Of a stretch of DNA of 64,000 nt, positions 2,015-18,917 are shown piece after piece. A model generated the notes under the pieces. That model had not been told where the DNA came from. It searched no databases and worked only from the letters and a program-made list of their open reading frames with translations. The stretch is taken from the NCBI RefSeq assembly GCF_019904295.1, contig NZ_CP065359.1:1575001-1639000 (forward strand). Reading direction: 5' to 3'. Made by a program: the position numbers and the translations under genes. This DNA comes from Ruegeria sp. SCSIO 43209. GTDB taxonomy: Bacteria; Pseudomonadota; Alphaproteobacteria; Rhodobacterales; Rhodobacteraceae. Numbering within the stretch: position 1 is the first letter of the stretch; every line of letters starts with the position of its first letter.

Positions 2015-2745
2015 TACGCGCCCCCCAGATACGAGGCCTGAACAGCCTTGTCGTTCATGACTTCGCTGAACGAGCCCTCGGCAATCATGGTGCCCCGTTC
2101 AATGGCGATCGCACGGTCGACCAATGGCTCAAGCGCAGGCAAATCATGGCTGACGATCAGAAAAGTCATCCCATCTTTGCGCATCGACTGAATGAGATCA
2201 GAGATTTGGGCGATCTCTCCTGTGGTGAGACCCGCAAACACTTCATCCAGCAGCATCACCTTGGGCGCGGTTGCCATTGTGCGCGCCATCTCAAGTTTAC
2301 GCAGATCACCCATGGCCAGTTCTGTCGGCGCGCGTTTCAAGTCCGCTTCTGTAAACCCGACGCTGAGCGCAAGCTCTCGCTCACGTTCTTTATCTGGGGG
2401 TGAGACGATCATCTGCCAGATATTGTCGGGCATTAGGCCAACCCGGATATTTTCGGCAACGCTCATATCACCAAACGGGCGTGGGATCTGATAGGTTCGG
2501 CTGACCCCGGCCCGAATGCGTTGTGGCGTCGACAGTGTCGAAATCTCCTGCCCGAACAGTTCGATCGTTCCGCCGTTTTGCCGCAACTCACCCATGATCT
2601 GGCTGAACACGGTCGTCTTGCCTGCCCCGTTGGGACCGATCAATCCAAGCGACTCGCCCTCTTTGAGAGAAAACGACAGATCATTCGTCGCGACTAATCC
2701 GCCGAAACGTTTTACCAGACCTGAAACCTGTAACGCCACGCTCAT
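2014..2745 (-). CDS. livG: LIV/HAAT-type ABC transporter ATP-binding protein LivG
   Basis: Second cytoplasmic ATPase of the importer, 243 residues. Walker A GPNGAGKTT is at residues 37-45, and the LivG-type insertion with SRTYQIPRPFGDMSV follows. The signature helix is degenerate, reading MGDLRKLEMART where LSGGxQ is usual. A degenerate signature is uncommon for LivG and may lower activity of one of the two ATP sites. The start overlaps the livM stop in an ATGA tetranucleotide and the stop overlaps the livF start. Confidence 0.9.
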   Translation of the reverse strand: MSVALQVSGLVKRFGGLVATNDLSFSLKEGESLGLIGPNGAGKTTVFSQIMGELRQNGGTIELFGQEISTLSTPQRIRAGVSRTYQIPRPFGDMSVAENIRVGLMPDNIWQMIVSPPDKERERELALSVGFTEADLKRAPTELAMGDLRKLEMARTMATAPKVMLLDEVFAGLTTGEIAQISDLIQSMRKDGMTFLIVSHDLPALEPLVDRAIAIERGTMIAEGSFSEVMNDKAVQASYLGGA

Positions 2746-3689: not shown

Positions 3690-3691
3690 GA

Positions 3692-5889: not shown

Positions 5890-5921
5890 CACATTAGCTC
5901 CCTGTGTCTTATTGTGCCCTT

Positions 5922-5947
5922 CTTGTATTCTGTATACAGTACACAAG
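5922..5947. promoter_or_regulatory. Operator candidate 1 (GTATACAG palindrome) before the importer operon
   Basis: A 26-bp inverted repeat centred on CTGTATACAG (5930-5939), with 11 of 13 base pairs symmetric. It lies 33 bases upstream of the start codon of the binding-protein gene, between it and the end of the RidA-like gene. Nineteen bases (TTGTATTCTGTATACAGTA) are identical to site 2 at 12726. Short AT-centred palindromes of this kind are typical for FadR/VanR-type GntR regulators, and one is encoded at 18246. Binding by that regulator is inference. Confidence 0.65.
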
Positions 5948-5985: not shown

Positions 5986-6396
5986 TCAGATTCCGCTGAT
6001 TTCGCCGTTTACGTCGTGAATTACCGCATCCACATCTATTTCCACCGTCAATCCAGGCTGCGTAAGCCCCGCTTGAACGGCTGTCAGAACCGGATCGATA
6101 TCTTTGAATACCTCTCCGTGAACGCTCGCGAATTCACCCGCGCGCGACAGATCGGTCAGATACGCGCGGACCCGGCCTACATGGCGCATCTCGGCACCGA
6201 CGGCCTTAAGCGCCTCTTCTATACGGGACAGAATGTATTTTGTCTGGGCTCCCACATCTCCTGGCGCATGAATACGCCCGCTGGGTTCGATCGCTGTGGT
6301 CCCTGCGACCCAAACGAAGGGACCGATGCGCTTTGCGCGGGAATAAGACGCAACTTCTTCGAACCGCCCGCCTGACTTCCAGATGCGGAGGGTCAC
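5986..6396 (-). CDS. RidA-like protein lacking the catalytic arginine
   Basis: A 136-residue chorismate-mutase-fold RidA/YjgF/UK114 family protein (VWVAGTTAIEP, the helix QTKYILSRIEEALKAVGAEMRHVGRVRAYLTD split over two motifs, and VEIDVDAV at the end). Archetypal RidA hydrolyses reactive enamines/imines using an Arg in P-x-R-(S/T)-x-V. Here the segment reads DPVLTAV with Leu104 at that position, so classical imine deaminase activity is doubtful. The start is the GTG overlapping the upstream dehydrogenase stop (GTGA), with GAGG upstream; a longer upstream frame is a shadow of that gene. Last gene of the microcompartment operon; imine chemistry fits the neighbouring amine-oxidising enzymes. Confidence 0.82.
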   Translation of the reverse strand: MTLRIWKSGGRFEEVASYSRAKRIGPFVWVAGTTAIEPSGRIHAPGDVGAQTKYILSRIEEALKAVGAEMRHVGRVRAYLTDLSRAGEFASVHGEVFKDIDPVLTAVQAGLTQPGLTVEIDVDAVIHDVNGEISGI

Positions 6397-7574
6397 AGGC
6401 CTAACCTCGACCGGATGGCATCCGCCGCTTTCTGCAAGGCTGCTTGTTCTTGATCGGTCAGCCGCAACTCCTCGACTTCGACCAACCCGGAAGACCCCAG
6501 ATGGGCAGGAACACCAAGCACAACCCCATCGATGCCATATTCCCCCTGCAACATGACCGAGACCGGAACCGGGCCGGTGCGTGCGCCCCGGATATGGTCG
6601 ATCAACTCGATCGACGCGTGCGCCGGTGCTATGGTTGCGGAACCGGATTTCTTCAGGGCAACTACCTGCCCACCGCCGGTCACGGCGTCCTGAACGCAAG
6701 CCTCAATCTGATCAGGCGATAAAAACACATCCAATGCCCTGCCCTTAATTTTGGCCCCGCTTGGGATTGGCGCCATCTCGTCCCCGTGGCTTCCGAGCGT
6801 GAAGGCCTCGACATCAGCGGGCGCTACTCCCGCAGCCATAGCAAGGGCGTTGCGAAACCGGCTGCTGTCCAGAGTACCGGCCATGCCCAGCACTCTTTCA
6901 CGAGGGAACCCGGTTGCGCGCAGCATTTCTACGGTCATTTCGTCAAGCGGATTGGTCACCACGATGACGATGGAATCAGGCGCAGCGGAGCGTATGGCCT
7001 CAGCGGCCTGGCGGATCACGCGCGCATTCACGTCGATCAGATCCGCGCGGCTCATACCCGGACGCCGGGCACGGCCTGCGGTTACCACGACCACCTCAGC
7101 CCCTGACACAAGGTCCAGCGACTCGCCACCAACACATCGTGCCCGTGCGCCGGTAATGCCTGACGTGTGGTTCAGATCCAACGCCGTAGCAGCGGCCATT
7201 CCGGGCGCAATATCGATCAGCGCGATCTCATCCGCGATATCCTGCATCGCCGCCAGATGCGCCACATTGCCCCCGACGCCCCCTGCCCCGATCATGGCAA
7301 GTTTGCCAAGCCTTCGGGCCTTGCGTTTCGAACGCACCGGAGCAACCCATTTGGGCGAGCGGCGATACAACACACGCTGCATTGAAATAGCAGCGTCTGT
7401 ACGCGTTGATTGTGGCTTTTCCAGCGGTCCGTCGACAAGCTTTATGCCAACACGCTCGGCAGTTTCGCGTGCCAAGGCCGTCACGATATCGTCGGGAAGG
7501 ACTTCAAACACGATCCGACCGCGACGGCGGGCATCTTCGACCGCCTCTGAACCTATGACGCGCGGCGCTGCCAT
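6393..7574 (-). CDS. Malate/lactate-dehydrogenase family enzyme with BMC-associated N-terminal extension
   Basis: 393 residues, about 80 longer than ordinary malate dehydrogenases. Residues 92-393 are a full LDH/MDH fold: NAD-binding GAGGVGG at 96-102, ARRPGMSR at 169-176 (the MDH-type dicarboxylate arginine loop), catalytic Asp236 and Arg239 in LDSSRF, and His263 in GSHGDE. All key residues are present, so an active NAD-dependent 2-hydroxyacid (malate-type) dehydrogenase is likely. Residues 1-90 form an extra domain; its segment VLPDDIVTALARETAERVGI resembles short N-terminal modules of other microcompartment enzymes (EutQ-like), followed by a basic linker. It starts at the ATG right after the BMC-T gene stop. 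Inference: encapsulated NADH recycling. Confidence 0.78.
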   Translation of the reverse strand: MAAPRVIGSEAVEDARRRGRIVFEVLPDDIVTALARETAERVGIKLVDGPLEKPQSTRTDAAISMQRVLYRRSPKWVAPVRSKRKARRLGKLAMIGAGGVGGNVAHLAAMQDIADEIALIDIAPGMAAATALDLNHTSGITGARARCVGGESLDLVSGAEVVVVTAGRARRPGMSRADLIDVNARVIRQAAEAIRSAAPDSIVIVVTNPLDEMTVEMLRATGFPRERVLGMAGTLDSSRFRNALAMAAGVAPADVEAFTLGSHGDEMAPIPSGAKIKGRALDVFLSPDQIEACVQDAVTGGGQVVALKKSGSATIAPAHASIELIDHIRGARTGPVPVSVMLQGEYGIDGVVLGVPAHLGSSGLVEVEELRLTDQEQAALQKAADAIRSRLGL

Positions 7575-8197
7575 CAGTTGGCTTGCCCGTCCACCGCCTC
7601 TATCGCGCGGGTTGCGGCCTCGACGGCGGTCTTGACCGAGTTTTCAGACCCCGAGATGAACAGGCGGCCAAACCGCCCCACGGCGCGCACTTCGACAATA
7701 TCGATCTCTGCCGCCTTCTCCGCTTCATTCGCGGCAATCGAGATATAGGCTGCCGGGGCACATTCGACGATGCCCAGCGTCTGCCCTGGAACGATCAGAG
7801 CCCCTTTGCGCCATTTGTTCAGCAGTTGCGCCTGATAGGGTTCGACGCTGGTGATAATCTGCGTGGAACTGATCGCCGGTTTCAACCGGTCAGACATTGT
7901 TGCGCCGAGCTCGGCCAGCATCGCATCGCGCGCGGCGGACACCTCCGCATTCGACGGAGACCGCAGGATAAAGAACCCGAACTCGCGCTCGACCATTTGT
8001 GTTGTCGCCTCAACCGAAGATGCCTTGAGCGCCCGGTCGATCAGCGAGAATACTCCGTTACCCGGCGCAAACTCTCCGATCAAAACCGTATCCCCGGACA
8101 AGGGCACCGACCCTTGCACCGTCGCACCGTTATAGGCGGCGAATTTTGGTTGCAGGTTGTCGATCTGCATCAGCGCCCGGATAGTAATCTCGCTCAT
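7574..8197 (-). CDS. BMC-T (tandem-domain) microcompartment shell protein
   Basis: 207 residues made of two BMC folds in tandem (about 1-100 and 110-205). The second domain contains GIVECAPAAYISIAANEAEKAA and ends GRLFISGSENSVKTAVEAATRAI, the usual BMC helix-strand pattern. Trimers of such proteins form pseudohexagonal facet tiles, often with a gated central pore for larger substrates. The gene overlaps the aldehyde dehydrogenase stop by 4 bases and its own stop touches the next start, so it lies inside a tightly packed operon. It is the only BMC-T in the window. Confidence 0.88.
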   Translation of the reverse strand: MSEITIRALMQIDNLQPKFAAYNGATVQGSVPLSGDTVLIGEFAPGNGVFSLIDRALKASSVEATTQMVEREFGFFILRSPSNAEVSAARDAMLAELGATMSDRLKPAISSTQIITSVEPYQAQLLNKWRKGALIVPGQTLGIVECAPAAYISIAANEAEKAAEIDIVEVRAVGRFGRLFISGSENSVKTAVEAATRAIEAVDGQAN

Positions 8198-9576
8198 GCG
8201 CCATACTCCTCGTAAATGTCGCGCCAGGGTCTGCTTTCATAGGCTACCCGTTTGATGTTGATGAGATGCAGGGCCGTCACATTGTCCGAAGTGATCGAAC
8301 CTGACCACGTGCCGGTGCCCAGCATGAAGGATGGTTCCAGATCAGTCGAATATCCCATACCGCCCATGATGCCCGGTGTATTCACCAGTACCCGACCCGT
8401 CGGCACGGTGGCAAAACGGGCCACGATCTCAGGGTCGTCCGAATGGATGACCGAGGAATGACCCCAGCCTTCGAACTTGGCGATGGATTGTGCCAGCTCG
8501 ATCCCATGGTCTGTGGATTTCGCCGCGTAGAACGCCAGAACGGGGTTCAGCTTTTCTGCAGACAGCGGGCGCTGCCAACCTACTTCAGTTTCTTCCGAAA
8601 CAAGGCACCGGGTGCGTGGTGGGATGGAAAAACCGGCAGCATCCGCCAGCGCCTGCGGGCTTTGCCCCACCTTCTCAGGGTCCATGGCCTGCACGCCTTT
8701 GAAGATCACCCCGGCAAGTCGATCCGCTTCGGCCGGTGTGCAGAAATAGGCACCTTTCAATTTAAGCTCGTGGCGCAAATCACGTGCGATCTCGGGATCA
8801 GCGACGACGGCCTGCTCACTGACGCAGGCGGTCCCGTAGTCAAAGCTCTTCGAAGTCACGATCATCTCGGCGACTTCCGCCAGATCGCGTGCTTTCGACT
8901 TGTGTACGTAACACGGCACGTTGCCCGCACCGACCGCGAGCGTGGGTTTGCCGCTGGAATACGCCGCTTTGACCATGGCAGGACCACCGGTTGCCATCAC
9001 AACCGAGGTACGGCGGTGTTTCATCAACTCGGCTGTGCCCTGAATTGTCACGGAATCCAGACATTGGATTAGACCCGTGGGCGCACCCATTTGCTCTGCC
9101 ACGCGCGCCATAATTCGCACCGTTTCGATGCCACAACTCACGCCACGTGGATGCGGCGCGCACACGATCGCATTGCCTGCCTTCACCGCAGAAAGCACTT
9201 TGTAGATGATCGTTGAAGTGGGGTTCGTCACCGGGATCAGAGCTGCCACAACGCCCATCGGTTCACCGAAGGCTGCGATCTTTGTCGCATCATCGCGCCA
9301 AAGCAATCCCAGCGTTGTCACATCTCTTAGATAATCCGCGACTGAAAGCGCGTTGAACAGGTTCTTGACGCGCTTGTCCGGCACATTCCCATATCCGGTT
9401 TCCTCGACGGCCATTTGCCCCAGCCGTTCGGCCTCGGGCTCGATGGCGCGCGCCATGGCGTCGACTATTGCGTCTACCTGCGCCGGGTCGGTGCCCAGAA
9501 AGGCGCGATAAGCCTCGAAAGCGCTATCTGCGGCACGCCGTGCGGCGGCGATTGATTTCAGATCTGCATCCATCAA
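8194..9576 (-). CDS. CoA-acylating aldehyde dehydrogenase (EutE/PduP/SauS-like), microcompartment-associated
   Basis: 460 residues, aldehyde-dehydrogenase superfamily, CoA-acylating branch. The catalytic Cys251 lies in FDYGTACVSEQ; NAD-site elements VTNPTSTIIYKVL and AVGAGNVPCYV are present. Such enzymes convert an aldehyde plus CoA and NAD to acyl-CoA and are the signature core enzyme of aldehyde-processing microcompartments. No clear separate encapsulation peptide is seen, although the N-terminal helix DLKSIAAARRAADSAFEAYR is amphipathic and could serve. It overlaps both neighbours by 4 bases. The aldehyde (acetaldehyde, propionaldehyde, sulfoacetaldehyde or other) cannot be decided from the sequence. 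Confidence 0.87.
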   Translation of the reverse strand: MMDADLKSIAAARRAADSAFEAYRAFLGTDPAQVDAIVDAMARAIEPEAERLGQMAVEETGYGNVPDKRVKNLFNALSVADYLRDVTTLGLLWRDDATKIAAFGEPMGVVAALIPVTNPTSTIIYKVLSAVKAGNAIVCAPHPRGVSCGIETVRIMARVAEQMGAPTGLIQCLDSVTIQGTAELMKHRRTSVVMATGGPAMVKAAYSSGKPTLAVGAGNVPCYVHKSKARDLAEVAEMIVTSKSFDYGTACVSEQAVVADPEIARDLRHELKLKGAYFCTPAEADRLAGVIFKGVQAMDPEKVGQSPQALADAAGFSIPPRTRCLVSEETEVGWQRPLSAEKLNPVLAFYAAKSTDHGIELAQSIAKFEGWGHSSVIHSDDPEIVARFATVPTGRVLVNTPGIMGGMGYSTDLEPSFMLGTGTWSGSITSDNVTALHLINIKRVAYESRPWRDIYEEYGA

Positions 9577-10757
9577 GAAGCTCCGGTGACGATGGTGTCA
9601 AAGATACGGCGCGCTTGATCAACGTCGCCCGCTGAAACCCCGATGGCTTCGAGGCGCCGTCCGGCGGCAGCCACATCCGCCCCCAAAATTCGGTCGGACA
9701 TCGCGATTAGGCTGTTCGTCAACGGGCTCGGGATACCCGCAAGCTCACCCGCTGAGACCAAAGGTACAAGCGAGCCCAACACGCCATCCCGCATCATACC
9801 GCGCGACGTTTGCTGATCCGGGATCGGACGCGCGCCCGAGCCACGTTCGGCGCCGGCAAAGGTGGCTATCCACTGCCCTGTCTCCGGCAGGTTGCGAACT
9901 CCAAACGCAGCAGCAATGCGTCGCCGTTCGTCTGCAAGCCCCTGAATGACCTCCGTCTGGTCCGGACCAATCAGAGACGCAAAGGTCTGGTTATCCTCAA
10001 GCTGAACACCACCCATTGGAATGTCAGGACCACCTGTCCCCATTGCGGCACCGCCGAGGATCAGCGCAGGTATCTCGACTGCGGCCGACAGATCGTTGAA
10101 GCCGCACGACAAAACCGAGTCGACCGCCTGAACGTTGGACAAATAGGCGGACACGGCGTCCAGAACCTCTTCCCGACCGCGCGGCAAGGTTGCCGCAGCC
10201 ATCGGTGCCGCCTGCGAAAGCGTCAAAGCTGCGCCCTCGGAACGGAACCAGTATGGCAGACCCTGAACCTCGACCAGCGTGACGTCCGCCGCGCAGCCTC
10301 CGATCCGCAATAGCCAGGCTGTTTCCACAGCCCCCAAAGATCGTCCCGGCGCAAGGACCAAGATTTGCCCGTCGCTGAGGTGATCGGCCAGCACCATCGC
10401 ATAAGTGCGCTGTTTGTGAAGCGGTCCGGTCAGGAATATCACCTGTGCATCGCGCACCGCTGCATCCAGCTCAGCGGTTGTGCGCACCGACGGCCCATCC
10501 CGATCGACTTGATAGGTCCCGACCGGACCTTCACCGCGAAGCGAAATGCCCGAGGACTGGGCCAACAGCGACAGTTCGGCCCCATAGGCCGAAAACAGGG
10601 TGACCTCAGCCCCTTCGGCAAGGCAAAGAGCGGCCAACAGGCGTGCATCAGCCCCGCCGCCCAACACCGATATCCGGTCGAGCTTGGGATGTTCAGGTGC
10701 ACCCCGGGTTGAGCCACGTGTCGCTGCACGTGTGAATTCCTCGAAACCGGCTGACAT
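9573..10757 (-). CDS. Opine-dehydrogenase-like NAD(P)-dependent oxidoreductase
   Basis: 394 residues. An N-terminal Rossmann domain has SVLGGGADARLLAALCLAEGAEVTLFS split around the dinucleotide-binding glycines, followed by a helical C-terminal half with DERRRIAAAFGV and LVPLVSAGELAGIPSPLTNSLI (quoted in parts). This matches the octopine/nopaline dehydrogenase family, which makes or splits secondary amines joining an amino acid to an oxo compound. The first about 25 residues before the Rossmann strand are extra and could be a targeting segment. It sits between the shell gene for BMC-H and the acylating aldehyde dehydrogenase. Inference: oxidative cleavage of an N-substituted amino acid to an aldehyde or oxo acid. 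A related NAD-dependent dehydrogenase of other specificity is possible. Confidence 0.65.
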   Translation of the reverse strand: MSAGFEEFTRAATRGSTRGAPEHPKLDRISVLGGGADARLLAALCLAEGAEVTLFSAYGAELSLLAQSSGISLRGEGPVGTYQVDRDGPSVRTTAELDAAVRDAQVIFLTGPLHKQRTYAMVLADHLSDGQILVLAPGRSLGAVETAWLLRIGGCAADVTLVEVQGLPYWFRSEGAALTLSQAAPMAAATLPRGREEVLDAVSAYLSNVQAVDSVLSCGFNDLSAAVEIPALILGGAAMGTGGPDIPMGGVQLEDNQTFASLIGPDQTEVIQGLADERRRIAAAFGVRNLPETGQWIATFAGAERGSGARPIPDQQTSRGMMRDGVLGSLVPLVSAGELAGIPSPLTNSLIAMSDRILGADVAAAGRRLEAIGVSAGDVDQARRIFDTIVTGAS

Positions 10758-10780
10758 AGCGTCTCCTCAAGACAGACGGA

Positions 10781-11089
10781 TTAAGCCGCAGAGCCAGCAC
10801 CAAGGCTGTCGATTATGGCCTCAAGTTCATCATGTGGGCGCGCGATCACGTGGACGGATACGACTTCACCCACTTTGTTTGCCGCTGTCGCTCCGGCATC
10901 CGCGGCGGCTTTGACTGCGCCGACTTCACCACGCACAAGGGTGGTGACTAGGCCTCCGCCAGCCTTGGTTTGGCCGACAATCGAAACGCTGGCCGCCTTG
11001 ACCATCGCATCTGCCGCTTCGATCGCGCCGACCAGTCCGCGCGTTTCGATCATGCCCAGGGCCATTTGCCCCGCCACTGGTTTCGCCAT
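10781..11089 (-). CDS. BMC-H microcompartment hexameric shell protein
   Basis: 102 residues, one BMC domain, close to PduA/CcmK/Eut[21 protein letters not shown], the pore loop KAGGGLV at 42-48, [15 protein letters not shown] and [12 protein letters not shown]. PduA has Ser in its KIGSGLV pore loop. Here the position is Gly, which would give a less polar and possibly wider pore. The start is the ATG at 11089 with GGAGG 8 bases upstream. It is the only BMC-H in the window, so the shell may be built from a single hexamer type. Confidence 0.95.
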
Positions 11090-11132
11090 TTTTCGTTCCT
11101 CCAAAGAAATTTAGATGTTTGGTGTTCTTGGT

Positions 11133-11399
11133 TCAGGTCGTGGACACGCGATCCACAATCGCGATGATCGCCAGATCGACGGGCGCGGTGGACAGACCGG
11201 CGGCCATACGCGCCGCCGAGCCGTTGACCAGCAGAACCGTATCCCCCACCCCGGCACCGCAGGTGTCGACGGCGACCCGCGCCGGTTCGATCACCTTGCC
11301 TTTGCTATCGACCAAATCCGTCACCAGCAGTTTCGTACCGACCAGTTTTGCGTCTTTGGCCGTGGCTGTGACGGTCCCGGCGACCTTGCCCAAATGCAT
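11133..11399 (-). CDS. BMC-P (EutN/CcmL-type) vertex protein
   Basis: 88 residues, full length for the family. It opens MHLGKVAGTVTATAKD, has VAVDTCGAGVGDTVLLVNGSAAR in the centre and ends PVDLAIIAIVDRV, the EutN/CcmL/CsoS4 pattern. Five copies close each vertex of the icosahedral shell. Its start overlaps the stop of the glutamine-synthetase-like gene, coupling a core ligase directly to the shell genes. Confidence 0.94.
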   Translation of the reverse strand: MHLGKVAGTVTATAKDAKLVGTKLLVTDLVDSKGKVIEPARVAVDTCGAGVGDTVLLVNGSAARMAAGLSTAPVDLAIIAIVDRVSTT

Positions 11400-12691
11400 C
11401 AGAAGGTCCTCAGGTAACGGTCCAACTCAACCGGAGTGACCTGTTGATTGAAGAATTCAAGCTCGCGCTCGGCCTGTTGCAATACCAACTCCCACAGCAT
11501 TTCGCCCATGAGATCGCGAAGCCATTCGGATCCTCGCGCCAGTTCGATCGCCGTTGGCAAGTCGGTCGGGATCGGATCGCCGATCCCTTCTTCGTAACCG
11601 TTGCCGGTTGTCGGCTCTGACGGAGCCAGGCCCTGCTCGATCCCGTCCAGCCCCGCTGCAATCTCGGCCGCCAGCAGAAGGTAGGGATTGGCATCTGCAC
11701 CAGCGTCACGTTTTTCTACGCGCACCGCGCTGTCGGATCCTTCAATGACCCGAATACCAACGGTCCGGTTGTCATAACCCCAGCTCGTGTTGATCGGGCA
11801 GAAAGTATAAGGCTGACGGCGTCGATAACCATTGACGGTGCCACTGCCACAGATTGCCGTTTCGCACATGCGTTGTTGCAGCCCGGCGATGAAGGATTTG
11901 CCGGTATCGTTTACCTTGCCGTTATCGGCAAAGACATTCTTGCCGTCTTTCCAAAGCGAGTAGTGTGTGTGGAAGCCGTTGCCGGACTGATCGAAGAACG
12001 GTTTTGGCATGAAGGTTGCCAGATAGCCGTGGGCGATGCCCAGCTGGCGGATCAGCGACTTAAACAAGACGACACGATCTGCCGCTGCCAGCGCTTCGCC
12101 GTAACGGATATTCACCTCAATCTGACCCGCAGCGTATTCGGGGTTCGATTGCTCGATTGGAATACCGCACTCGTTGATCTGTTGGCGGATCGGCCCAACG
12201 ATGTGCTCCATCCGCGCAGCACGGCCCAGACCGTAGACCTGGATCCCGCTATCGCGCGGCTGTCCGGTCTCCGGATCCAGTAGATAGAATTCAAGTTCAG
12301 TACCGACATTGACCTCGAACCCCATTTCGCGGGCCCGTTCAACTTGACGCACCAACGCCTGACGCGGATCGATCGGAACAGGCTTGTGATCCATACCTTC
12401 CGCCCGACCAAAGCAAACAGCGACGCCTGGCTCCCACGGCACAGCGACGGGCTGGGTCATTGGGAAGACGTGCATATCGGGGTAGCCGTTGTCGAAATTG
12501 ACATAAGGCGTATCCCAGACGTCGCACGTCATATCGATCGCCATCAATGCAATCGACAGCGCATTGCCGCTTTTGCAGACGTGGTCCCAGTGGCTGGCCG
12601 GAATGCGCTTGCCACGCATGATGCCGTTGAGGTCACCCACACCAAGTATGACGGTGTGCGTGCCTTCGGGCAGATCAAATCCCGAACTCAT
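11399..12691 (-). CDS. Glutamine-synthetase-like gamma-glutamyl-amine ligase
   Basis: 430 residues, glutamine synthetase fold. GTELEFYL is the metal-binding motif, GNGFHTHYSLWKDGKN the ATP/Glu region, NGYRRRQPYTFCP and VEKRDAGADANPYLLLA the catalytic C-terminal part. The sequence resembles the PuuA/GmaS/GlnT/IpuC branch, which ligates glutamate to amines rather than to ammonia only. First gene of the microcompartment operon, with operator site 2 between it and the divergent flavoprotein. Co-occurrence with MgsABC-like subunits supports gamma-glutamylation of an amine substrate. True glutamine synthesis or another amine specificity cannot be excluded. Confidence 0.8.
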   Translation of the reverse strand: MSSGFDLPEGTHTVILGVGDLNGIMRGKRIPASHWDHVCKSGNALSIALMAIDMTCDVWDTPYVNFDNGYPDMHVFPMTQPVAVPWEPGVAVCFGRAEGMDHKPVPIDPRQALVRQVERAREMGFEVNVGTELEFYLLDPETGQPRDSGIQVYGLGRAARMEHIVGPIRQQINECGIPIEQSNPEYAAGQIEVNIRYGEALAAADRVVLFKSLIRQLGIAHGYLATFMPKPFFDQSGNGFHTHYSLWKDGKNVFADNGKVNDTGKSFIAGLQQRMCETAICGSGTVNGYRRRQPYTFCPINTSWGYDNRTVGIRVIEGSDSAVRVEKRDAGADANPYLLLAAEIAAGLDGIEQGLAPSEPTTGNGYEEGIGDPIPTDLPTAIELARGSEWLRDLMGEMLWELVLQQAERELEFFNQQVTPVELDRYLRTF

Positions 12692-12725
12692 TGATGCGCT
12701 CTCCCTGTTTTTTGCTTTATAATTG

Positions 12726-12751
12726 TTGTATTCTGTATACAGTATTCACAA
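12726..12751. promoter_or_regulatory. Operator candidate 2 in the divergent promoter region of the BMC operon and flavoprotein
   Basis: Contains CTGTATACAG at 12733-12742 and shares 19 identical bases with site 1. It lies in the 91-base space between two divergent starts (12691 on the minus strand, 12783 on the plus strand), so one bound regulator could control both units. The region around it is AT-rich (TTTGCTTTATAATTGTTGTA), as expected for promoter elements. Confidence 0.65.
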
Positions 12752-12782
12752 AGACAATCGATAAACAAGGAAAATCTGCATC

Positions 12783-13922
12783 ATGTCCAAGAACTCGGTC
12801 ATCGTTGTCGGAGGCGGCATCGTCGGCGTCATGACGGCGCTTACACTGCAACGACGTGGTGAGGCAGTGACTTTGATAGATCGCTGGGAACCGGGACATT
12901 CCCGTGCATCTTCAACGGATTACAACCGTGTCATCCGTGCGATTTCCGGGCGGGACGAGTTCTATACACGTTGGGCCCGCGAAAGCCGCTTGCGCTGGCT
13001 GGAACTGCAAGCCGAGAGCGGCCAGAACCTGATGTATGAATGCGGTGCGCTGATTCTTGCAACAGGCGGTCATTGCGACTGGGAGAACGCCACAGCCGAA
13101 ACCTTCGACCGCGTTGGTGTGCCCTACTACAAGTTCGGGCGGCAGGACATCGAATCGCGATTTCCGCAGTTTCGCGTTCCTGACATCGAATACGCCCTGT
13201 TCGAACCCGAAGCCGGAATGCTGATGGCGCATCGCTGCGTCCTGACCGGGCTTGAGCTGTTTCGTCGAGCGGGCGGGATCGTACAGCGCGGTCGCGTGAC
13301 CACCGATGGATCAGAGTGCCCAATGCTGGATGGAAAGCCGCTTGAGGCTGATCTTATCATTGTCTCAACCGGCCCCTGGATGGCGGACATGTTCCCCAGG
13401 ACGATCAAGCCGATATCGACGGTGGTTGGTGTGAATGTCCTCTATACCTCAACGCCAGATGGGTCCGAGGAGTTCGATATGAGCCGGATGCCCTGCTGGA
13501 TCGATCATGGTCAGGGCTCATTCGGGCTACCCTCATCCGAAGGTTCAGGCGTGAAAGCCGCGGTCGTCATCCCGGACAAGATCGATCTGGACAATGACGA
13601 AAGGCTAATCCGACAGGAAACGCTAGGACGCACTCGCAGCTACATCCGTCATCGTCTTCCGGGCCTTGAAGGTGAGCGGGTAGTGGATTCCAAATTCAAC
13701 CAGATCATCCTGACACCTGACACGCACTTTATTGTCGACTGGCACCCCGAGCATGAAAACGTGCTGTTCGCCGGAGGCTGCTCGGGACATCTGTTCAAAC
13801 ACGCGCCGGTTTTTGCAGAGTTTGCGGCAGGTGTTGGAATGAAGGATTTCGGAACGGCTGATCGTTTCAAGATCACTGGTCGAAGAAAACTGAGCCCAAA
13901 AGAAAGTCCAAGCGGGCGTTAA
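12783..13922 (+). CDS. Sarcosine-oxidase (MSOX/SolA)-like FAD-dependent amine oxidase
   Basis: 379 residues, DAO-type flavoprotein. GGGIVGVMTAL at residues 10-20 binds the FAD dinucleotide, and SSTDYNRVIR parallels the flavin/substrate arginine segment of monomeric sarcosine oxidase. The C-terminal LTPDTHFIVDWHPEHENVLF and GCSGHLFKHAP match that family. In MSOX the residue before this motif is the Cys carrying covalent FAD; here the aligned residue appears to be Asn306, so the flavin is probably non-covalent. The family oxidises secondary amines such as sarcosine, N-methyl or N-fructosyl amino acids. Divergent to the microcompartment operon across operator 2. Inference: oxidation of an N-substituted glutamate intermediate. 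Confidence 0.8.
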   Translation: MSKNSVIVVGGGIVGVMTALTLQRRGEAVTLIDRWEPGHSRASSTDYNRVIRAISGRDEFYTRWARESRLRWLELQAESGQNLMYECGALILATGGHCDWENATAETFDRVGVPYYKFGRQDIESRFPQFRVPDIEYALFEPEAGMLMAHRCVLTGLELFRRAGGIVQRGRVTTDGSECPMLDGKPLEADLIIVSTGPWMADMFPRTIKPISTVVGVNVLYTSTPDGSEEFDMSRMPCWIDHGQGSFGLPSSEGSGVKAAVVIPDKIDLDNDERLIRQETLGRTRSYIRHRLPGLEGERVVDSKFNQIILTPDTHFIVDWHPEHENVLFAGGCSGHLFKHAPVFAEFAAGVGMKDFGTADRFKITGRRKLSPKESPSGR

Positions 13923-14269
13923 CCTTCTGAAAGCGCCGCATAGAGCCCTGAATTCGGGCACTTTTCCTGAGGCAGGCGAACACCTGATCGAATTGCATCT
14001 CGGCAGGTCTTTGCTTGGCGACAATGTCCACATTTTTCCGCCAACTCAAGGCCAAGCTCAGGATGGGCCTTAAGATCATCTTCACTCAGGCCAAACTGAC
14101 TAGCCATCGAGAGTATACGCTCTCGCGCGTTGGGCGCGCCAGAACGCAACATGGCCAAATCAGTGCGGGACAGGCCGAGATCCGATAGCTCCAGATCGCT
14201 GATACTTCCCTCGCGTGGAGCATTCACAATCCGCGCAATCCTCTCAAAGAAATCCTTGTATCCCGTCAT
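13919..14269 (-). CDS. Small DUF6455-like protein with four-Cys C-terminal motif
   Basis: 116 residues, no signal or membrane segment. An N-terminal helical part (residues 20-75, DLELSDLGLSRTDLAMLRSG) looks like a helical bundle. The C-terminus carries Cys80, Cys83, Cys89 and Cys104 (CGHC, KTC, KCP), suitable for binding a metal or Fe-S cluster. It resembles the DUF6455 family common in Rhodobacteraceae, of unknown function. I chose the ATG at 14269 with GGGAG 8 bases upstream. It overlaps the flavoprotein gene tail-to-tail by 4 bases and has its own operator candidate at 14293, which ties it to the island. Confidence 0.7.
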   Translation of the reverse strand: MTGYKDFFERIARIVNAPREGSISDLELSDLGLSRTDLAMLRSGAPNARERILSMASQFGLSEDDLKAHPELGLELAEKCGHCRQAKTCRDAIRSGVRLPQEKCPNSGLYAALSEG

Positions 14270-14292
14270 TGCCAAATCTCCCAACCGATTGC

Positions 14293-14306
14293 GTATACAG
14301 TATACA
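14293..14306. promoter_or_regulatory. Operator candidate 3 upstream of the DUF6455-like gene
   Basis: The sequence GTATACAGTATACA is identical to the complement of 18143-18156 within site 4. It is 24 bases upstream of the DUF6455-like start codon. It lacks the CT that precedes GTATACAG in sites 1, 2 and 4, so it is symmetric around a single central base rather than in the 26-bp register. Confidence 0.55.
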
Positions 14307-14358
14307 TAGTGCGGCTTGGCTGGACTTGATTAGGATCAAGAGCCGCTCGCTCAAAGGC

Positions 14359-15057
14359 TTATTGCTCAGGGACGTATGTACCGCGAAAAAGCTCTACTGC
14401 TTGAAGCGCTGCAATATCGTCGGGCACAATTGCCGCGCTGACCGAGGACATCCCATCATCCGCTTCCGTAGCTGACAAAAGCACCTCTCGACCTCTGGTG
14501 AACAGATCGCGCAAGTGATGCGCCTTGTATTCGGGATGAAACTGAACAGAGCGGGCAGGAAAATCATAATCCAGTGCACCAACTGGACAGTGGCCCGCTG
14601 ATCCGGTCACCCGAGCCGAGTCCGGAATGCTTGTTACCTGATCCTGATGCCAGACATATGCATCCACGCTATCTCCGCCATAGTTGAAGGGCCGTGCGCC
14701 AACGACATTGCCTACCTCGACTTTCTCGGCCCGACCACCATAGACGTCAGCCATGATCTGATGTCCGAAACAGATACCAAAGACTGGTTTTCGGATTTCT
14801 CGACAACGGTCCAGGAAGGCACGTAGCGGCTGCATCCAATCCGTGTCATCATAAACGCCAAATTCAGATCCGCCGACTATAGCGCCGTCGAAATCGCTCT
14901 CGTCCGGGAGCGGTTCTCCATCAACGACCCCGACTACTACGAACTCGGCTTCCGGTAGGTGTGGGGCGATCCACTCCTGAATCTGCTGTGAAGTCCGCGG
15001 CATTCCCTCCAACAATGGCAGCGGGTGGCTAGTCAACTCAAGAACTGCGATTTTCAC
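14359..15057 (-). CDS. Class I glutamine amidotransferase-like protein
   Basis: 232 residues. The class I (GuaA/PuuD-type) triad is visible: Cys96 in FGICFGHQI and His174/Glu176 in QFHPEYK. The domain hydrolyses a gamma-glutamyl amide bond. Its start overlaps the stop of the GlxD-like gene by 4 bases, making it the last gene of that operon. In known pathways such stand-alone domains release amines from gamma-glutamyl conjugates (PuuD) or are stand-alone amidotransferase-domain proteins of unknown role. Inference: reversal or proof-reading of the ligase step, or use of a glutamyl intermediate. Confidence 0.82.
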   Translation of the reverse strand: MKIAVLELTSHPLPLLEGMPRTSQQIQEWIAPHLPEAEFVVVGVVDGEPLPDESDFDGAIVGGSEFGVYDDTDWMQPLRAFLDRCREIRKPVFGICFGHQIMADVYGGRAEKVEVGNVVGARPFNYGGDSVDAYVWHQDQVTSIPDSARVTGSAGHCPVGALDYDFPARSVQFHPEYKAHHLRDLFTRGREVLLSATEADDGMSSVSAAIVPDDIAALQAVELFRGTYVPEQ

Positions 15058-16478
15058 CAGTCAAAAGCCCTGTCAATTCCAGCCATTTTCACCCCAGTGA
15101 AAGCTGACGCTTGAAAGCTAAGCGCACGCAAGTCTTCGGTTTCCAGATTGTGTACCGAGGACTTTCCGCAGGCTTTCGCAAGCGCTGTAATCTCCATGGT
15201 CATGGCCGTCAGATAGCGCGCAATGCGCTCTGCCCCTGCATTAGGGTTCATACGAGCTTCGAGACTTTCATCCTGCGTCGCAATGCCAACCGGGCAACGA
15301 CCAGTGTGGCAATGGTGGCAGGCGCCCGGCGAGGTTCCCAACGCCGCGTAATCTTCGAGATAGCGCGGACTGTTGCATCCTAGCGCAACCATGGCCGCGT
15401 TGCCGATCATCACAGCGTCAGCACCGAGGGCCAGACACTTCGCGGCGTCCACACCGGACCGAATGCCACCGGCAGCGACCAGAGAGACTTTGCCGGTCAT
15501 GCCGCATTCGTCCAATGCTTCACGCGCGGCACGAATAGCGCTCATCGTTGGGATTCCGGTATGGTTTAGCAATAGCTCCGGAGACGCGCCGGTACCACCT
15601 TCGGCACCATCAACTACTACAACATCAGCACCCGCTTTGGCGGCAACTGCCACGTCAAACCGGGGACGTGTCGCACCCATCTTGATGAAGATCGGCACCT
15701 GATAGTTGGTGGCGATGCGCAATTCTTCAATCTTCACTGCCAAATCATCAGCGCCGAGAAAATCTGGATGGCGGATCGTAGATCGCTGATCCACGCCTTC
15801 GGGCAAAGTTCGCATCTGGCTGACGCGCGGGCTGACCTTCATACCCAGCAACAGACCCCCGGTTCCGGGTTTCGCACCCTGCCCCACGACAAGTTCCAAG
15901 GCATCCGCGCGGCGCAGATGATCCAGATCCACACCATACCGCGCGGGTGACATCTGATAGAGCAGGCGTTGGGAGGCTTCGCGCTCCTCTTCCAGCATGC
16001 CACCCTCACCCGTGCAAGTCATGGTTCCTACTTTCGAGGCCCCATAACCCAGCGATGCCTTGGCCGATGCCGACAAAGCACCAAAGGACATTGAAGCGAT
16101 GTAGATCGGGATCTTCAATTCAAGCGGGCGCTCCACAAGGCCGCGCCCTCCACCCAGAACGGTCGTCGTATCGCAATTCTCGCGATAGCCTTCTAGAGGC
16201 AGGCGGGTCATCGTTGCAGGAACGAATGTCAGATCATCAAAAGTCGGCAATTGCTTGTTGAACGTGTTGTATCCACGTACCTGATAGCGCCCAAGCTGCG
16301 CCAGCGCGTGAACTTCCGAGATCGCCTCGGGTGTCCAGCGGGTCGATCCTCCTTCGTCATACGACGAAGGAACGCCAGCCGGGCGGCCGTCGATCGCTCC
16401 CGCATCGCGGAACCTGATTTCCTCTTCCGAGGCAACGTCGAACGGATATTCGTAAGGTTTACTCAGATCATGAGCCAT
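15054..16478 (-). CDS. GlxD/MgsC-like FMN-binding glutamate-synthase domain protein
   Basis: 474 residues, equivalent to the central and FMN domains of glutamate synthase large subunit, as a separate protein. It shows PIYIASMSFGALSASAK, the TIM-barrel phosphate/FMN site VVVVDGAEGGTGASP, VAAGGIRSGVDAAKCLALGADAV and the 3Fe-4S-type Cys cluster CHHCHTGRCPVGIATQD. In N-methylglutamate synthase (MgsABC) and GlxBCD this subunit performs the reductive transfer onto 2-oxoglutarate. It overlaps the GlxC-like gene by 16 bases. Glutamate synthase activity proper is the alternative, but no GltD-like NADPH subunit is nearby. Confidence 0.85.
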   Translation of the reverse strand: MAHDLSKPYEYPFDVASEEEIRFRDAGAIDGRPAGVPSSYDEGGSTRWTPEAISEVHALAQLGRYQVRGYNTFNKQLPTFDDLTFVPATMTRLPLEGYRENCDTTTVLGGGRGLVERPLELKIPIYIASMSFGALSASAKASLGYGASKVGTMTCTGEGGMLEEEREASQRLLYQMSPARYGVDLDHLRRADALELVVGQGAKPGTGGLLLGMKVSPRVSQMRTLPEGVDQRSTIRHPDFLGADDLAVKIEELRIATNYQVPIFIKMGATRPRFDVAVAAKAGADVVVVDGAEGGTGASPELLLNHTGIPTMSAIRAAREALDECGMTGKVSLVAAGGIRSGVDAAKCLALGADAVMIGNAAMVALGCNSPRYLEDYAALGTSPGACHHCHTGRCPVGIATQDESLEARMNPNAGAERIARYLTAMTMEITALAKACGKSSVHNLETEDLRALSFQASAFTGVKMAGIDRAFDW

Positions 16479-17176
16479 GCGCTTGCGTCCCTGCTTTCAA
16501 AATACCAAAGACGCTGGCCCGAAACCATTTTGCGCCAATTTCGCGAACTGTCGACAAGCCCGAGCGGGTCGAGGATCGCATCGACCTCGGCCACTTCTTC
16601 AGCAGTCGGTTCGATCACGTCGACATCCACACCCAGGCTGTCGACCTCGCCAGCTACCCAGACCTCACCTTCCCAAAGCGCATCAGCACAGGATTCCCCC
16701 GCTCCGCCAAGCGCTATGATCCGACCGGAATGCGCCATGAAGCCGGACTGATAGCCAATCTTTCCTTCGACGACGATGTTTCCACCTTTCATCGCAACGC
16801 CCACCCTTGGACCCGCATCGCCTTTGACATGGATCGTGCCGCCGATCATCGCAGCACCACAGGACATACCGGCATAGCCACCGACAGTGATGTGCCCTTT
16901 GGCCATACCTTCGCCAACGGCCCACCCACAATTGCGCTCAATTGTGATGTTCGCCCCGGTATTGAGGCCGCCGCAGTAGTACCCCACAGAGCCCTCAAAT
17001 GTGATATCCACATTGTCTGGCAGACCCACGCCCAAATTATGACGAGACAGCGTATCTACCACGCGGATCGGCCGACCCATTGTGCAGGCTTCCATTATCT
17101 CACGATTGACCTCGCGGATATGTCGCTTGCCGACTTCGATGACGATCTCATCCATCTTTGCAGCCACCTCATTCAT
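16463..17176 (-). CDS. GlxC/MgsB-like glutamate-synthase C-terminal (GXGXG) domain protein
   Basis: 237 residues. The central part is a run of right-handed beta-helix repeats rich in GG and GxxxG (GSVGYYCGGLNTGANI, NCGWAVGEGMAKGHI, GGYAGMSCGAAMIGGTI), the alpha-subunit GXGXG domain of glutamate synthase. It acts as a structural linker that supports the ammonia or amine channel between the amidotransferase and FMN subunits. I place the start at the ATG overlapping the upstream stop in ATGA (17176). The longer open frame upstream is a shadow of the GATase II gene. Confidence 0.85.
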   Translation of the reverse strand: MNEVAAKMDEIVIEVGKRHIREVNREIMEACTMGRPIRVVDTLSRHNLGVGLPDNVDITFEGSVGYYCGGLNTGANITIERNCGWAVGEGMAKGHITVGGYAGMSCGAAMIGGTIHVKGDAGPRVGVAMKGGNIVVEGKIGYQSGFMAHSGRIIALGGAGESCADALWEGEVWVAGEVDSLGVDVDVIEPTAEEVAEVDAILDPLGLVDSSRNWRKMVSGQRLWYFESRDASAWLMI

Positions 17177-18117
17177 GCCGCCAAACTCCGGTTTCCGACG
17201 CCCCAGATACCGGTCAGCGACGGGCCGTCGTAGTTGATCACATCGCATTCCTCGGTCATCACCCGGCGGACCGCTTGTTCTTCGGTCGCAGCCGCCAGAT
17301 CGCCATTGCGGTTGACGACGACCAGAGGCTTCATTGCAAATCGGTCTTTGGCAAACCCAATCCCGTTTGGCGTTGCGATCATGTAGGTAAACACACCATC
17401 GATAGAGGTAATGGACTTCTTTAGCGCCTGCTCCATGGTCAGGCCCGCCTTCATCTGGTCGCTGACCCACACGGCAATCAACTCGCTGTCATTCTCAGTC
17501 AAGAACCGATAACCCATTCGGGTCAGCTTATCGCGCCAGGTGAAGTAATCGGTGATCTGCCCGTTATGTACGATCGCGACATCCGAAAATGGGCGCGCCC
17601 AGAACGGATGCGATGCGTTAGGCAATACCGAACTTTCCGTAGCAAGCCGCGCATGCCCCAGCCCATGTGTTCCTATCATATCGCGAACGCCGTGCTTTTC
17701 TGCCACGGCTTCGGCACCACCAATATCCTTGATGATCTCAAGACTACGGCCGCAGGATTGTACTTCAATGCGGTCTGTCAGCTCATCCGCGTCTGCGACC
17801 CAGGCTTGAAGATTCCTTGGGTCTGAAATTTCCATCCGAAAGCAATAGTGACGACTTTGGTCCGTTACGATTTGGGGGTCAGACAGAAAGCTGCTTCCGT
17901 GTTCACGCAATATCGTTTCAAACGCGGAGAGATCCGCATCCTGTTGAGACTTGTCGAATCCCATTCCGCGTAAAACGTATCCCGTTTCTCGTGGCAAACC
18001 ATAAACGGCGAAGCCAGTGCTGTCGGCGCCTCGATGTTCCTGCGCATCCATCAGGTCAACAAGATCCGCCCCAACCTTCCCGGGCGCGGCCAGTATTCTA
18101 CCAGCAATTCCACACAT
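17173..18117 (-). CDS. GlxB/MgsA-like class II glutamine amidotransferase
   Basis: 314 residues, N-terminal nucleophile amidotransferase. The start must be the ATG at 18117 because the protein then begins MCGIAGRI, giving Cys as the N-terminal residue after Met removal. GGGAG lies upstream. Further motifs are HRGADSTGFAVYG, ATESSVLPNASHPFW and IVHNGQITDYFTWR. It releases ammonia, or an amine from a gamma-glutamyl amide in the MgsA case, for the FMN subunit. First gene of the four-gene glxBCD-amidotransferase operon, with operator site 4 only 27 bases upstream. Confidence 0.87.
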   Translation of the reverse strand: MCGIAGRILAAPGKVGADLVDLMDAQEHRGADSTGFAVYGLPRETGYVLRGMGFDKSQQDADLSAFETILREHGSSFLSDPQIVTDQSRHYCFRMEISDPRNLQAWVADADELTDRIEVQSCGRSLEIIKDIGGAEAVAEKHGVRDMIGTHGLGHARLATESSVLPNASHPFWARPFSDVAIVHNGQITDYFTWRDKLTRMGYRFLTENDSELIAVWVSDQMKAGLTMEQALKKSITSIDGVFTYMIATPNGIGFAKDRFAMKPLVVVNRNGDLAAATEEQAVRRVMTEECDVINYDGPSLTGIWGVGNRSLAA

Positions 18118-18140
18118 GAAGAGCTCCCTGTTCATTCTTT

Positions 18141-18163
18141 CCTGTATACTGTATACAGTACAC
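18141..18163. promoter_or_regulatory. Operator candidate 4 between glxBCD-like operon and gntR
   Basis: A 20-bp palindrome at 18144-18163, GTATACTGTATACAGTACAC, with nine of ten pairs matching and CTGTATACAG as its core (18149-18158). It is the most complete of the four sites. It lies between divergent genes: 27 bases before the GlxB-like start and about 80 bases before the gntR GTG, so it could mediate both control of the operon and autoregulation. Confidence 0.68.
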
Positions 18164-18206
18164 GAACAATAGCAACCCCATTCGCCTTGGCAGCAGTTGT
18201 TTTATT

Positions 18207-18219
18207 GAATACAGAATTC
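18207..18219. promoter_or_regulatory. Weak operator-like sequence close to gntR
   Basis: GAATACAGAATTC lies 27 bases before the GTG of gntR. It matches the GTATACAGTATAC form in 10 of 13 positions by eye and is itself a partial inverted repeat. It could be a low-affinity autoregulatory site, or just the -10 region of the promoter. Low confidence. Confidence 0.25.
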
Positions 18220-18245
18220 ATGAAGGACAGAAAGAGAGGCTCCGA

Positions 18246-18917
18246 GTGGCTCTGAAACAAATCAAAACACAACGCAGACGCCTGGCGGACGAGGTCTATG
18301 ACCAACTGGTCGAAGCCATCATGAGTCGCGAGATCACCGGTGAAGATCGGCTGGTGCAGGAAAAGCTGGCCGCCGAGTTGAACATCAGCAGGACGCCCGT
18401 ACGCGAAGCGCTCATGCGGTTGGAGACTGAAGGCGTGTTGGAAGTGGCCGCCAGCGGCGGATTTCGATTGGCGCGCATGGACCAGACCGAGGTGCGGCAA
18501 CTATACCAGGCACGTGCCGCGATCGAAGGACAAGCCGCGCGCATACTTGCGGTACACGCAGAACCAGAGGTGCTGGATCGATTGCGTGAACTCATTCGTC
18601 GCGAAGAAGATCTGAGCCAGCCAACGACCCGAGACTATTTTATCGCAAACCGACGCATTCATCGTGCCTTCATGGTTGAGGCGGGCAACAAATTTCTTAT
18701 CGATATGTTCGATATGATCTGGGGCAAAGCGATGGCGTTCCATCTGTTTTCAGCGATTGAGAATGTTGATATCTCCAAATCGCTCGGAAACCACCTGACG
18801 CTAGTTGACGCGATAGCGACGGGTGATGTCACCGAAGCGCTGGAAACTTTCACCAGCCACATTCAGGAAGGTTTCGACCTTCAGATCGAAGGTCTGAAAG
18901 AAGCGGATAACGGTTAA
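18246..18917 (+). CDS. GntR-family transcriptional regulator, FCD subfamily
   Basis: 223 residues. The N-terminal winged helix is RRLADEVYDQLVEAIMSREI, with recognition helix LNISRTPVREALMRLETEGV. The C-terminal FCD domain carries the metal-ligand type residues in RRIHRAFMVEAGN and SLGNHLTLVDA and TSHIQEGF. FCD regulators bind small carboxylates or acyl compounds and usually repress their neighbours. The GTG start has GAGAGG 6 bases upstream. Position at the edge of the island and the palindromes in front of every unit make it the likely local regulator; whether it represses or activates is not visible. Confidence 0.87.
   Translation: MALKQIKTQRRRLADEVYDQLVEAIMSREITGEDRLVQEKLAAELNISRTPVREALMRLETEGVLEVAASGGFRLARMDQTEVRQLYQARAAIEGQAARILAVHAEPEVLDRLRELIRREEDLSQPTTRDYFIANRRIHRAFMVEAGNKFLIDMFDMIWGKAMAFHLFSAIENVDISKSLGNHLTLVDAIATGDVTEALETFTSHIQEGFDLQIEGLKEADNG

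Follow-up and report, generated by a model that had tools for sequence, protein, structure and literature searches.

A Ruegeria microcompartment locus that may oxidize a glutamate-borne amine

Where does the aldehyde come from? Many metabolosome loci carry an aldehyde dehydrogenase but no obvious source of its substrate, according to the main text of Sutter et al. (PMC8217296). The question arises for a gene island at positions 5986-18917 of a 64,000-nucleotide stretch (the window; G000:C1:1575001-1639000, on contig NZ_CP065359.1) of the 4.6-Mb genome of Ruegeria sp. SCSIO 43209. The original prediction had placed here bacterial microcompartment (BMC) shell genes together with an acylating aldehyde dehydrogenase (AldDH), a glutamine synthetase (GS)-like ligase, an MgsABC/GlxBCD-like set, a class I amidotransferase, and sarcosine-oxidase-like, opine-dehydrogenase-like (OpDH), and RidA-like proteins, and all of these families are indeed present. 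Its gene list lacked a malate dehydrogenase (MDH)-like gene, whose domain begins at residue 91, and livKHMGF. PF00936 and PF03319 genes, the mark of a metabolosome shell, occur over cut-off in this one locus; a genome profile search gave two matches to the former and one to the latter, all of them here. On balance, we think it probable that these genes form one regulon and encode a metabolosome whose substrate is a small primary amine.

Conservation of the locus

On the minus strand, genes for a class II glutaminase, a GXGXG subunit, an FMN glutamate-synthase subunit, the class I amidotransferase, and a 121-amino-acid (aa) protein are transcribed in that order; a tight block of ligase, BMC-P, BMC-H, OpDH, AldDH, BMC-T, MDH-like, and RidA genes follows, and then livKHMGF. 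The first three genes, which adjoin one another, give the three-subunit make-up of MgsABC, with the MCG motif in the class II glutaminase. The gene for an oxidase resembling monomeric sarcosine oxidase (MSOX) diverges from the ligase gene, and a GntR-FCD regulator gene diverges from the Mgs set (Table 1).

A contig scan with an alignment of 11 AldDH sequences returned 469 relatives. Among the best 80 loci, which were kept, gene content assigned 67 to the type of the window, 2 to actinobacterial variants, and 11 to a group resembling the MIC1 metabolosome. By database names, 36 of the 67 same-type loci come from Rhodobacterales and the rest from Hyphomicrobiales, Granulosicoccaceae, Chromatiales, Arenicellales, and more; the variants belong to Acidimicrobiia (L073) and Nocardioidaceae (L074), and the MIC1-like loci to Burkholderiales or "Proteobacteria," with one from Acidimicrobiales. 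Few genomes have this type of locus: of 244 genomes of the order, 3 have AldDH at E ≤ 1e-80, that of Ruegeria sp. SCSIO 43209 included, and among 385 of the class sample this genome alone has it at E ≤ 1e-150.

With gene presence called by tblastn at ≥50 bits, the ligase, oxidase (DAO), OpDH, BMC-P, and BMC-H are found in 58/58 same-type loci that have 5 kb or more upstream; BMC-T, the MDH-like gene, and RidA are found in 57/57 that have 3 kb or more downstream. All missing cases of these eight core genes fall at contig or locus ends, which is not so for absences of Liv genes. LivF-LivH genes adjoin the shell genes in 41 to 42 of the 49 loci with at least 8.5 kb downstream, and LivK is absent from 8 of these 49; the livKHMGF-type transporter at 1307-5946 belongs to the system. 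The order GS-BMCP-BMCH-OpDH-AldDH-BMCT-MDH-RidA, which interleaves amine and shell genes, is kept across loci, and both actinobacterial variants retain the ligase, Mgs set, AldDH, MDH-like, OpDH, and shell genes. Recurrence of the gene set and its order in 67 related loci rules out a chance grouping. The synteny of shell and ligase genes that the original prediction proposed to look for is thus found. Its island holds together as one set where RidA and OpDH are concerned, both being conserved with the MDH-like gene, and loses the class I amidotransferase (29/67 loci), which lies outside the core, as does the 121-aa protein (16/67). In two gammaproteobacterial loci, L032 (1601-3653) and L053, a histidine kinase gene lies paired with a response regulator gene close to the oxidase; the pair is annotated in L032.

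The Mgs genes and a shared operator

MgsC lies inside the locus in 40 of the 67 cases. Among the other 27, 21 whole genomes were searched (all except those of L038, L041, L043, L063, L066, and L067), and 19 contain an MgsC orthologue at 77 to 93% identity, well separated from paralogues at ≤58%; Mgs is present in 59/61 locus genomes checked. Across the order, MgsC (E ≤ 1e-200) occurs in exactly the same 3/244 genomes as AldDH, the window's own included. Among the MIC1-like genomes MgsC was found in 0/11, a weak negative, though the same query and threshold gave matches in 21/21 genomes elsewhere. A second MgsC homologue in the window's own genome (C4) has MCE and efflux genes as neighbors and is uninformative on the amine route.

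Eleven of the 19 separate Mgs operons were retrieved. Eight are presumably on the same contig as AldDH, ∼13 to 106 kb away, and three are on another contig; all 11 have a GntR-FCD gene beside mgsA. The operon of the L050 genome (L129) adjoins livKHMGF, and the L050 shell locus itself has no Liv genes. Two of the separate operons, L120 (7387-8394) and L128 (10148-11221), carry an extra, distant DAO-family gene between MgsC and the class I amidotransferase, with products 21 to 24% identical to the window oxidase.

A common operator ties these pieces together. In the window, the palindrome CTGTATACAG stands upstream of livK, in the ligase/oxidase gap, and in the mgsA/gntR gap. Overlapping matches to TACTGTATACAG with ≤2 mismatches number 12, 11 of them within the cluster, against 0.79 expected. 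At the same tolerance, ACTGTATACAGT occurs in the ligase/oxidase gap of 60/62 loci, a count that includes L008, the second copy of a retrieved genome. It lies within 250 bp upstream of the glutaminase (GAT6) in 34/36 cases, of GS in 59/61, and of DAO in 58/61; base shuffles gave ≤0.55 expected matches for each gene class. By contrast with these promoters, six internal genes have no operator in that interval: AldDH (0/69), MDH (0/61), BMC-T (0/68), LivF (0/46), GltC (0/37), and RidA (0/59).

The operator also follows the Mgs genes away from the shell. All 11 retrieved Mgs operons carry it in the gntR-mgsA gap, and their 204,833 bp hold only four further matches. Two of these four precede livK in L129, so that the livKHMGF there has its own operator. 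In 207,584 bp of MIC1-like loci, matches at ≤1 mismatch number zero. The same holds for ACTGTATACAGT in 400 kb of the window's own genome, versus three in the window, all in the cluster; at ≤2 mismatches the background has three and the window four, so that the ≤1-mismatch level is the telling one. Weaker variants with two mismatches occur upstream of mgsA in L073 and, in L074, upstream of the ligase and at 15217. The GntR-FCD protein is the presumed binder. Because the operator marks most Mgs, ligase, and oxidase promoters, those of the 11 retrieved separate Mgs operons included, a single regulon seems to take in the ligase, the Mgs set, and the shell. The predicted link between an amine module and the shell with its AldDH therefore gains from synteny (58/58 and 57/57), co-occurrence in 3/244 genomes, and shared regulation. 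Homologous shell loci without ligase and Mgs genes, which the prediction had named as counting against itself, are not seen within the locus type and do exist as its 11 MIC1-like cousins, which lack both.

Enzymes, proposed pathway, and alternatives

The residue counts below exclude L007 and L008, each of which duplicates a genome represented by another locus, together with proteins shorter than 85% of the length of the window protein; the row of the window itself is counted, and the MDH and AldDH counts also take in MIC1-like and actinobacterial rows. The Mgs glutaminase has its MCG motif in 38/38 rows and a C-CPVG motif in 37/38. Both structure comparison (MSOX fold) and sequence similarity place the oxidase with the monomeric sarcosine oxidase family, and the residues aligned to MSOX Arg49, Arg52, Lys265, and Lys348, presumably functional residues of that family, are kept in 58 to 59 of 59 rows; its substrate is therefore likely an N-substituted amino acid. 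At the position of MSOX Cys315, presumably the covalent-flavin Cys of the family, the oxidases have Asn (56/59), Cys (2), or Gln (1), so this Cys is not kept. Their C-terminal end is SPSGR in 57/59 rows (window 13875-13919; loci L009-L080); the last 15 residues are modeled with low confidence, and the L074 oxidase lacks the tail, which is possibly a short, probably disordered, targeting or docking signal.

The Octopine_DH domain of OpDH scores 25 bits, under its cut-off of 30; the fold is confirmed, with CENDH and octopine dehydrogenase nearest. An N-terminal helix (residues 3-12) followed by a disordered linker (13-21), with an F-x-x-F motif in 65/67 rows, makes OpDH look encapsulated; the window GS and DAO begin at their domains, with no such extension. 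The position of CENDH His202, which we take to be the catalytic His of the opine dehydrogenases, is Glu in 63/67 rows, Asp in 2, His in L073 only, and a gap in L074; judging by the alignment, the proteobacterial set has lost this residue. The MDH-like enzyme also looks encapsulated, to judge from its N-terminal extension, and is the candidate dehydrogenase for NADH recycling; it keeps the MDH-type Arg, presumably favoring a carboxylated substrate, in 62/63 rows. AldDH scores 505 bits against TIGR02518 (acetylating acetaldehyde dehydrogenase; cut-off, 620), and its nearest solved relative is 5j78, an acetylating acetaldehyde dehydrogenase (431 bits). The PDB relatives of LivK score no more than 42 bits; several bind leucine or amino acids, but similarity at this level is too low for a ligand to be named.

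From this gene content we infer the following chemistry and cargo. LivKHMGF would import the substrate, and the GS-like ligase would join the amine to the gamma-carboxyl of glutamate, using ATP. The class II glutaminase subunit of the MgsABC-like complex would then free the amine, which the complex would fix reductively on 2-oxoglutarate to give N-alkylglutamate. The MSOX-like oxidase, with RidA help, would oxidize the N-alkyl C-N bond, yielding glutamate and an aldehyde, and AldDH would turn the latter into acyl-CoA within a shell whose BMC-H, BMC-T, and BMC-P proteins are encoded by one gene each. The MDH-like enzyme would reoxidize NADH; OpDH may offer a second way to split N-alkylglutamate or serve in redox or imine handling. 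The scheme follows the three-step logic of the published GMAS/NMGS route, with an MSOX-like oxidase and AldDH in a shell. As for the substrate, a C2 amine, ethylamine before ethanolamine, is our best guess because the nearest solved AldDH relatives are acetaldehyde enzymes; even with the two taken jointly, this guess is tentative. An amino-acid-like amine is a serious alternative, given that the transporter is of the Liv type and that L074 has an amino-acid permease.

Several observations weigh against an amine metabolosome under one regulon. The amine route, its reactions, the cargo, and the shells are predictions from gene sequences, and the loci, retrieved through AldDH, are kin by descent, so that their counts are not independent events. 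In L061 and L068 the ligase/oxidase gap contains no operator at ≤2 mismatches, only 19/47 LivK genes have one within 250 bp upstream, and the class I amidotransferase has none there (0/6). Two of the 21 searched genomes, G261 and G262, both metagenome-assembled, have no close MgsC, and the ligase (E ≤ 1e-120) occurs not only in the three AldDH genomes but also in 2/244 without AldDH. In the original prediction the GS-like ligase loads the amine on glutamate; this ligase, present in 58/58 loci with room, scores 241 bits against TIGR03105 (GmaS), under the cut-off of 469.6, reaches 200.6 of 650 bits for gamma-glutamylputrescine synthetase, and misses the threshold of each curated family it was compared with. 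The usual cargo of Liv-type transporters is an amino acid or amide, not an alkylamine. PduL-family phosphotransacylase (PF06130) is absent from the genome (2/14 control genomes matched; the search was for this family among phosphotransacetylases), which leaves CoA recycling inside the shell unexplained. No MSOX-like gene was found in the L073 genome at E ≤ 1e-15, so the oxidase step may not be universal. Finally, belonging to this shell lineage is in itself no sign of an amine route, because the 11 cousin loci share the core without ligase or Mgs genes.

The two AldDH-free genomes are G174 and G038, and their ligase relatives are 63 to 68% identical to the window ligase. In G038 (L139, 1722-15327), the 63%-identical relative has its own GntR regulator and Liv-type transporter, with P450, flavohaemoprotein-type reductase, ADH, class I amidotransferase, and SSADH genes as neighbors, a set suggestive of a different amine-oxidation cluster.

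How do other explanations fare? The encapsulated OpDH, not the flavin oxidase, might be the signature enzyme, splitting N-alkylglutamate with NAD+ in the shell while the MDH-like enzyme balances NADH. OpDH is after all the enzyme of the amine module with an encapsulation-type N-terminus, GS and DAO starting at their domains; it occurs in 58/58 loci with room and in each of the two actinobacterial variants, and it retains the catalytic His in L073, whose genome yielded no MSOX-like gene. We nevertheless hold this unlikely: Glu replaces that His in 63/67 rows of the proteobacterial set, the oxidase is equally present in 58/58 loci, and opine dehydrogenases oxidize the alpha-carbon side, which would return amine and 2-oxoglutarate. 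We are just as doubtful of a glutamate-borne amine metabolosome in which the His-less OpDH was recruited as an aldehyde-releasing or imine-handling signature enzyme and the malate-type dehydrogenase as a redox valve. A pathway in which OpDH and RidA act first, on an opine (e.g., of marine invertebrates) or another amino-acid-like amine (e.g., an omega-amino acid), would suit the fold of OpDH, the Liv-type transporter in most loci with the permease in L074, and the MDH-type Arg (62/63), which presumably favors carboxylated substrates; yet an opine needs neither an ATP-dependent ligase nor an Mgs-like complex, both of which are conserved, and the catalytic His is lost, so we rate it as quite unlikely.

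An ethanolamine route like that of Streptomyces GlnA4, with gamma-glutamylethanolamide oxidized while on glutamate and the shell serving another aldehyde, appears improbable. GlnA4-type clusters hold a ligase, an aldehyde dehydrogenase, an amidotransferase, and a transporter, as far as the portion of PMC6529630 used here describes them, and a class I amidotransferase is encoded in the window too; that portion names no Mgs or shell genes for the route, and the amidotransferase is in 29/67 loci versus Mgs in 59/61 genomes checked. Least of all do we expect a plain neighborhood, in which an ordinary MIC1-like shell locus happens to adjoin an unrelated GS/GOGAT-like nitrogen-assimilation island. 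It could appeal to the 11 cousins, in which the shell and AldDH recur, along with an MDH-like gene in 10 of the 11, while ligase, Mgs, and OpDH are lacking. It is contradicted by the operator shared even with separate Mgs operons and by the conserved interleaving from ligase to RidA, and a 1560-aa open frame with a Glu_synthase domain, presumably GltB, lies elsewhere in the genome; the same three points disfavor a GS/GOGAT duplicate. The canonical methylamine pathway is not favored, as no GmaS over cut-off occurs in the genome and an AldDH of the acetaldehyde type is a poor match for a C1 aldehyde. A Puu-type route was rejected: besides the low ligase score, AldDH reaches 35.8 of 850 bits for PuuC.

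Relation to known systems

An amine metabolosome of this kind would combine two known designs. In the N-methylglutamate pathway (gmaS-mgsABC-mgdABCD of Methylobacterium extorquens DM4), the sections of PMC6237917 drawn on here propose a GS/GOGAT-like transfer of methylamine by GMAS/NMGS from the gamma-amide to 2-oxoglutarate as N-methylglutamate, from which NMG dehydrogenase releases formaldehyde. A ligase, a three-subunit glutamate-synthase-like complex, and a presumed N-alkylglutamate-oxidizing enzyme recur here. Unlike that pathway, the locus has a ligase below the GmaS cut-off and a monomeric MSOX-like oxidase in place of the four-gene dehydrogenase (no MgdABCD was seen among annotated locus genes, the scope of that check), and it adds a shell and an acylating AldDH where the published route yields formaldehyde.

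The shell half is closest to MIC1, which, in the parts of Axen et al. (2014; PMC4207490) used here, likewise has AldDH and a lactate/malate-dehydrogenase-type enzyme and no phosphotransacylase; by the naming rules given there, the window locus is a metabolosome with an incomplete core, close to MIC1. The 11 MIC1-like loci encode AldDH 50 to 55% and BMC-H 69 to 75% identical to the window proteins. They have HAD phosphatase, MreB/FtsA-like, Zn-alcohol dehydrogenase, PucR-type regulator, and PPDK-like genes, whereas ligase, Mgs, OpDH, DAO, RidA, and the operator at ≤1 mismatch are missing; in the gene lists of the retrieved loci, clusters of phosphatase and MreB-like genes occur solely in this group. 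In three of them (L077, L079, and L082), a PPDK_N/PEP-utilizer gene is accompanied by another, small PEP-utilizer gene, and a phosphoryl-transfer step may feed their shell.

The amino-alcohol metabolosomes RMM1 and RMM2, as covered by the same parts of Axen et al., also combine an amine-related substrate, AldDH, a GntR regulator, and an incomplete core, but are actinobacterial, with a phosphotransferase and a short-chain dehydrogenase and no ligase or Mgs set named. The EUT metabolosome shares the acetaldehyde-type acylating AldDH and a plausible C2 amine substrate; it differs from the window locus, where no ethanolamine ammonia-lyase is among the annotated genes and the genome has no PduL-family phosphotransacylase. 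MIC2-MIC7 of Sutter et al. (2021; PMC8217296) belong, like this locus, to the class of shell loci that carry AldDH but lack an evident signature enzyme; in the main-text sections compared, no substrate route or description is given for them, and the window locus may be one of these, already catalogued as a locus. The literature searched, which comprised several partial listings and papers covered in part, yielded no description of a shell locus with ligase and Mgs genes or of such a route.

Table 1. Features of the locus and its flanking transporter genes (window coordinates).
Feature	Position	Strand	Basis and remarks
LivF ABC transporter	1307-2014	-	Pfam ABC_tran / BPD_transp_2 for the LivF-LivG-LivM-LivH block, 1307..4543
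LivG	2014-2745	-	Same Pfam basis across block
LivM	2742-3707	-	Same Pfam basis across block
LivH	3692-4543	-	Same Pfam basis across block
LivK-like periplasmic binding protein	4609..5946	-	Peripla_BP_6, 133 bits; true start probably within open reading frame
Operator-like palindrome, 5' end of livK open reading frame	5928..5941		0-1 mismatch to TACTGTATACAG, 1 mismatch to ACTGTATACAGT
RidA-like imine/enamine hydrolase	5986..6387	-	PF01042 (Ribonuc_L-PSP), 79 bits; start approximate
Malate/lactate-dehydrogenase-like enzyme, N-terminal encapsulation-type extension	6393..7574	-	Ldh_1_N/Ldh_1_C from residue 91; NF004863 MDH, 314 bits
BMC-T shell protein, CcmP-like	7574..8197	-	PF00936; CcmP model 206 bits, under its cut-off of 340
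Acylating aldehyde dehydrogenase (AldDH)	8194..9576	-	Aldedh over cut-off; TIGR02518, 505 bits
Opine-dehydrogenase-like enzyme (OpDH), N-terminal F-x-x-F helix and linker	9573..10757	-	Octopine_DH domain
BMC-H shell protein	10781..11104	-	PF00936, 90 bits
BMC-P shell vertex protein (EutN_CcmL)	11133..11399	-	PF03319, 92 bits
GS-like ligase, presumed gamma-glutamyl-amine ligase	11399..12691	-	PF00120 (Gln-synt_C), 296 bits
Operator, divergent ligase/oxidase gap	12731..12744		Operator scan
MSOX-like FAD oxidase, C-terminal tail SPSGR	12783..13922	+	DAO, 139 bits
121-aa protein, accessory	13919..14284	-	No Pfam or NCBIfam match; 16/67 loci
Weak operator-like site, just upstream of 121-aa gene	14291..14307		Two TACTGTATACAG matches with 2 mismatches; not within 2 of ACTGTATACAGT
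Class I glutamine amidotransferase (GATase-I), accessory	14359..15057	-	PF00117; 29/67 loci
MgsC/GlxD-like FMN glutamate-synthase-domain subunit	15054..16478	-	PF01645 (Glu_synthase), 325 bits
MgsB/GlxC-like GXGXG subunit	16463..17176	-	PF01493; start approximate
MgsA/GlxB-like class II glutaminase subunit, starts MCGI	17173..18117	-	PF13522
Operator, mgsA-like/gntR gap	18140..18160		Exact ACTGTATACAGT at 18148
GntR-FCD regulator, presumed operator binder	18246..18917	+	PF00392 and PF07729

The locus makes the question of the missing aldehyde source testable, and the operator provides a handle, since the amine that induces it would reveal the substrate. If our reading is right, glutamate-carried amines would join the substrates burned in protein shells, and marine bacteria such as Ruegeria, Sulfitobacter, and, going by database names, Planktomarina would be among those that burn them.

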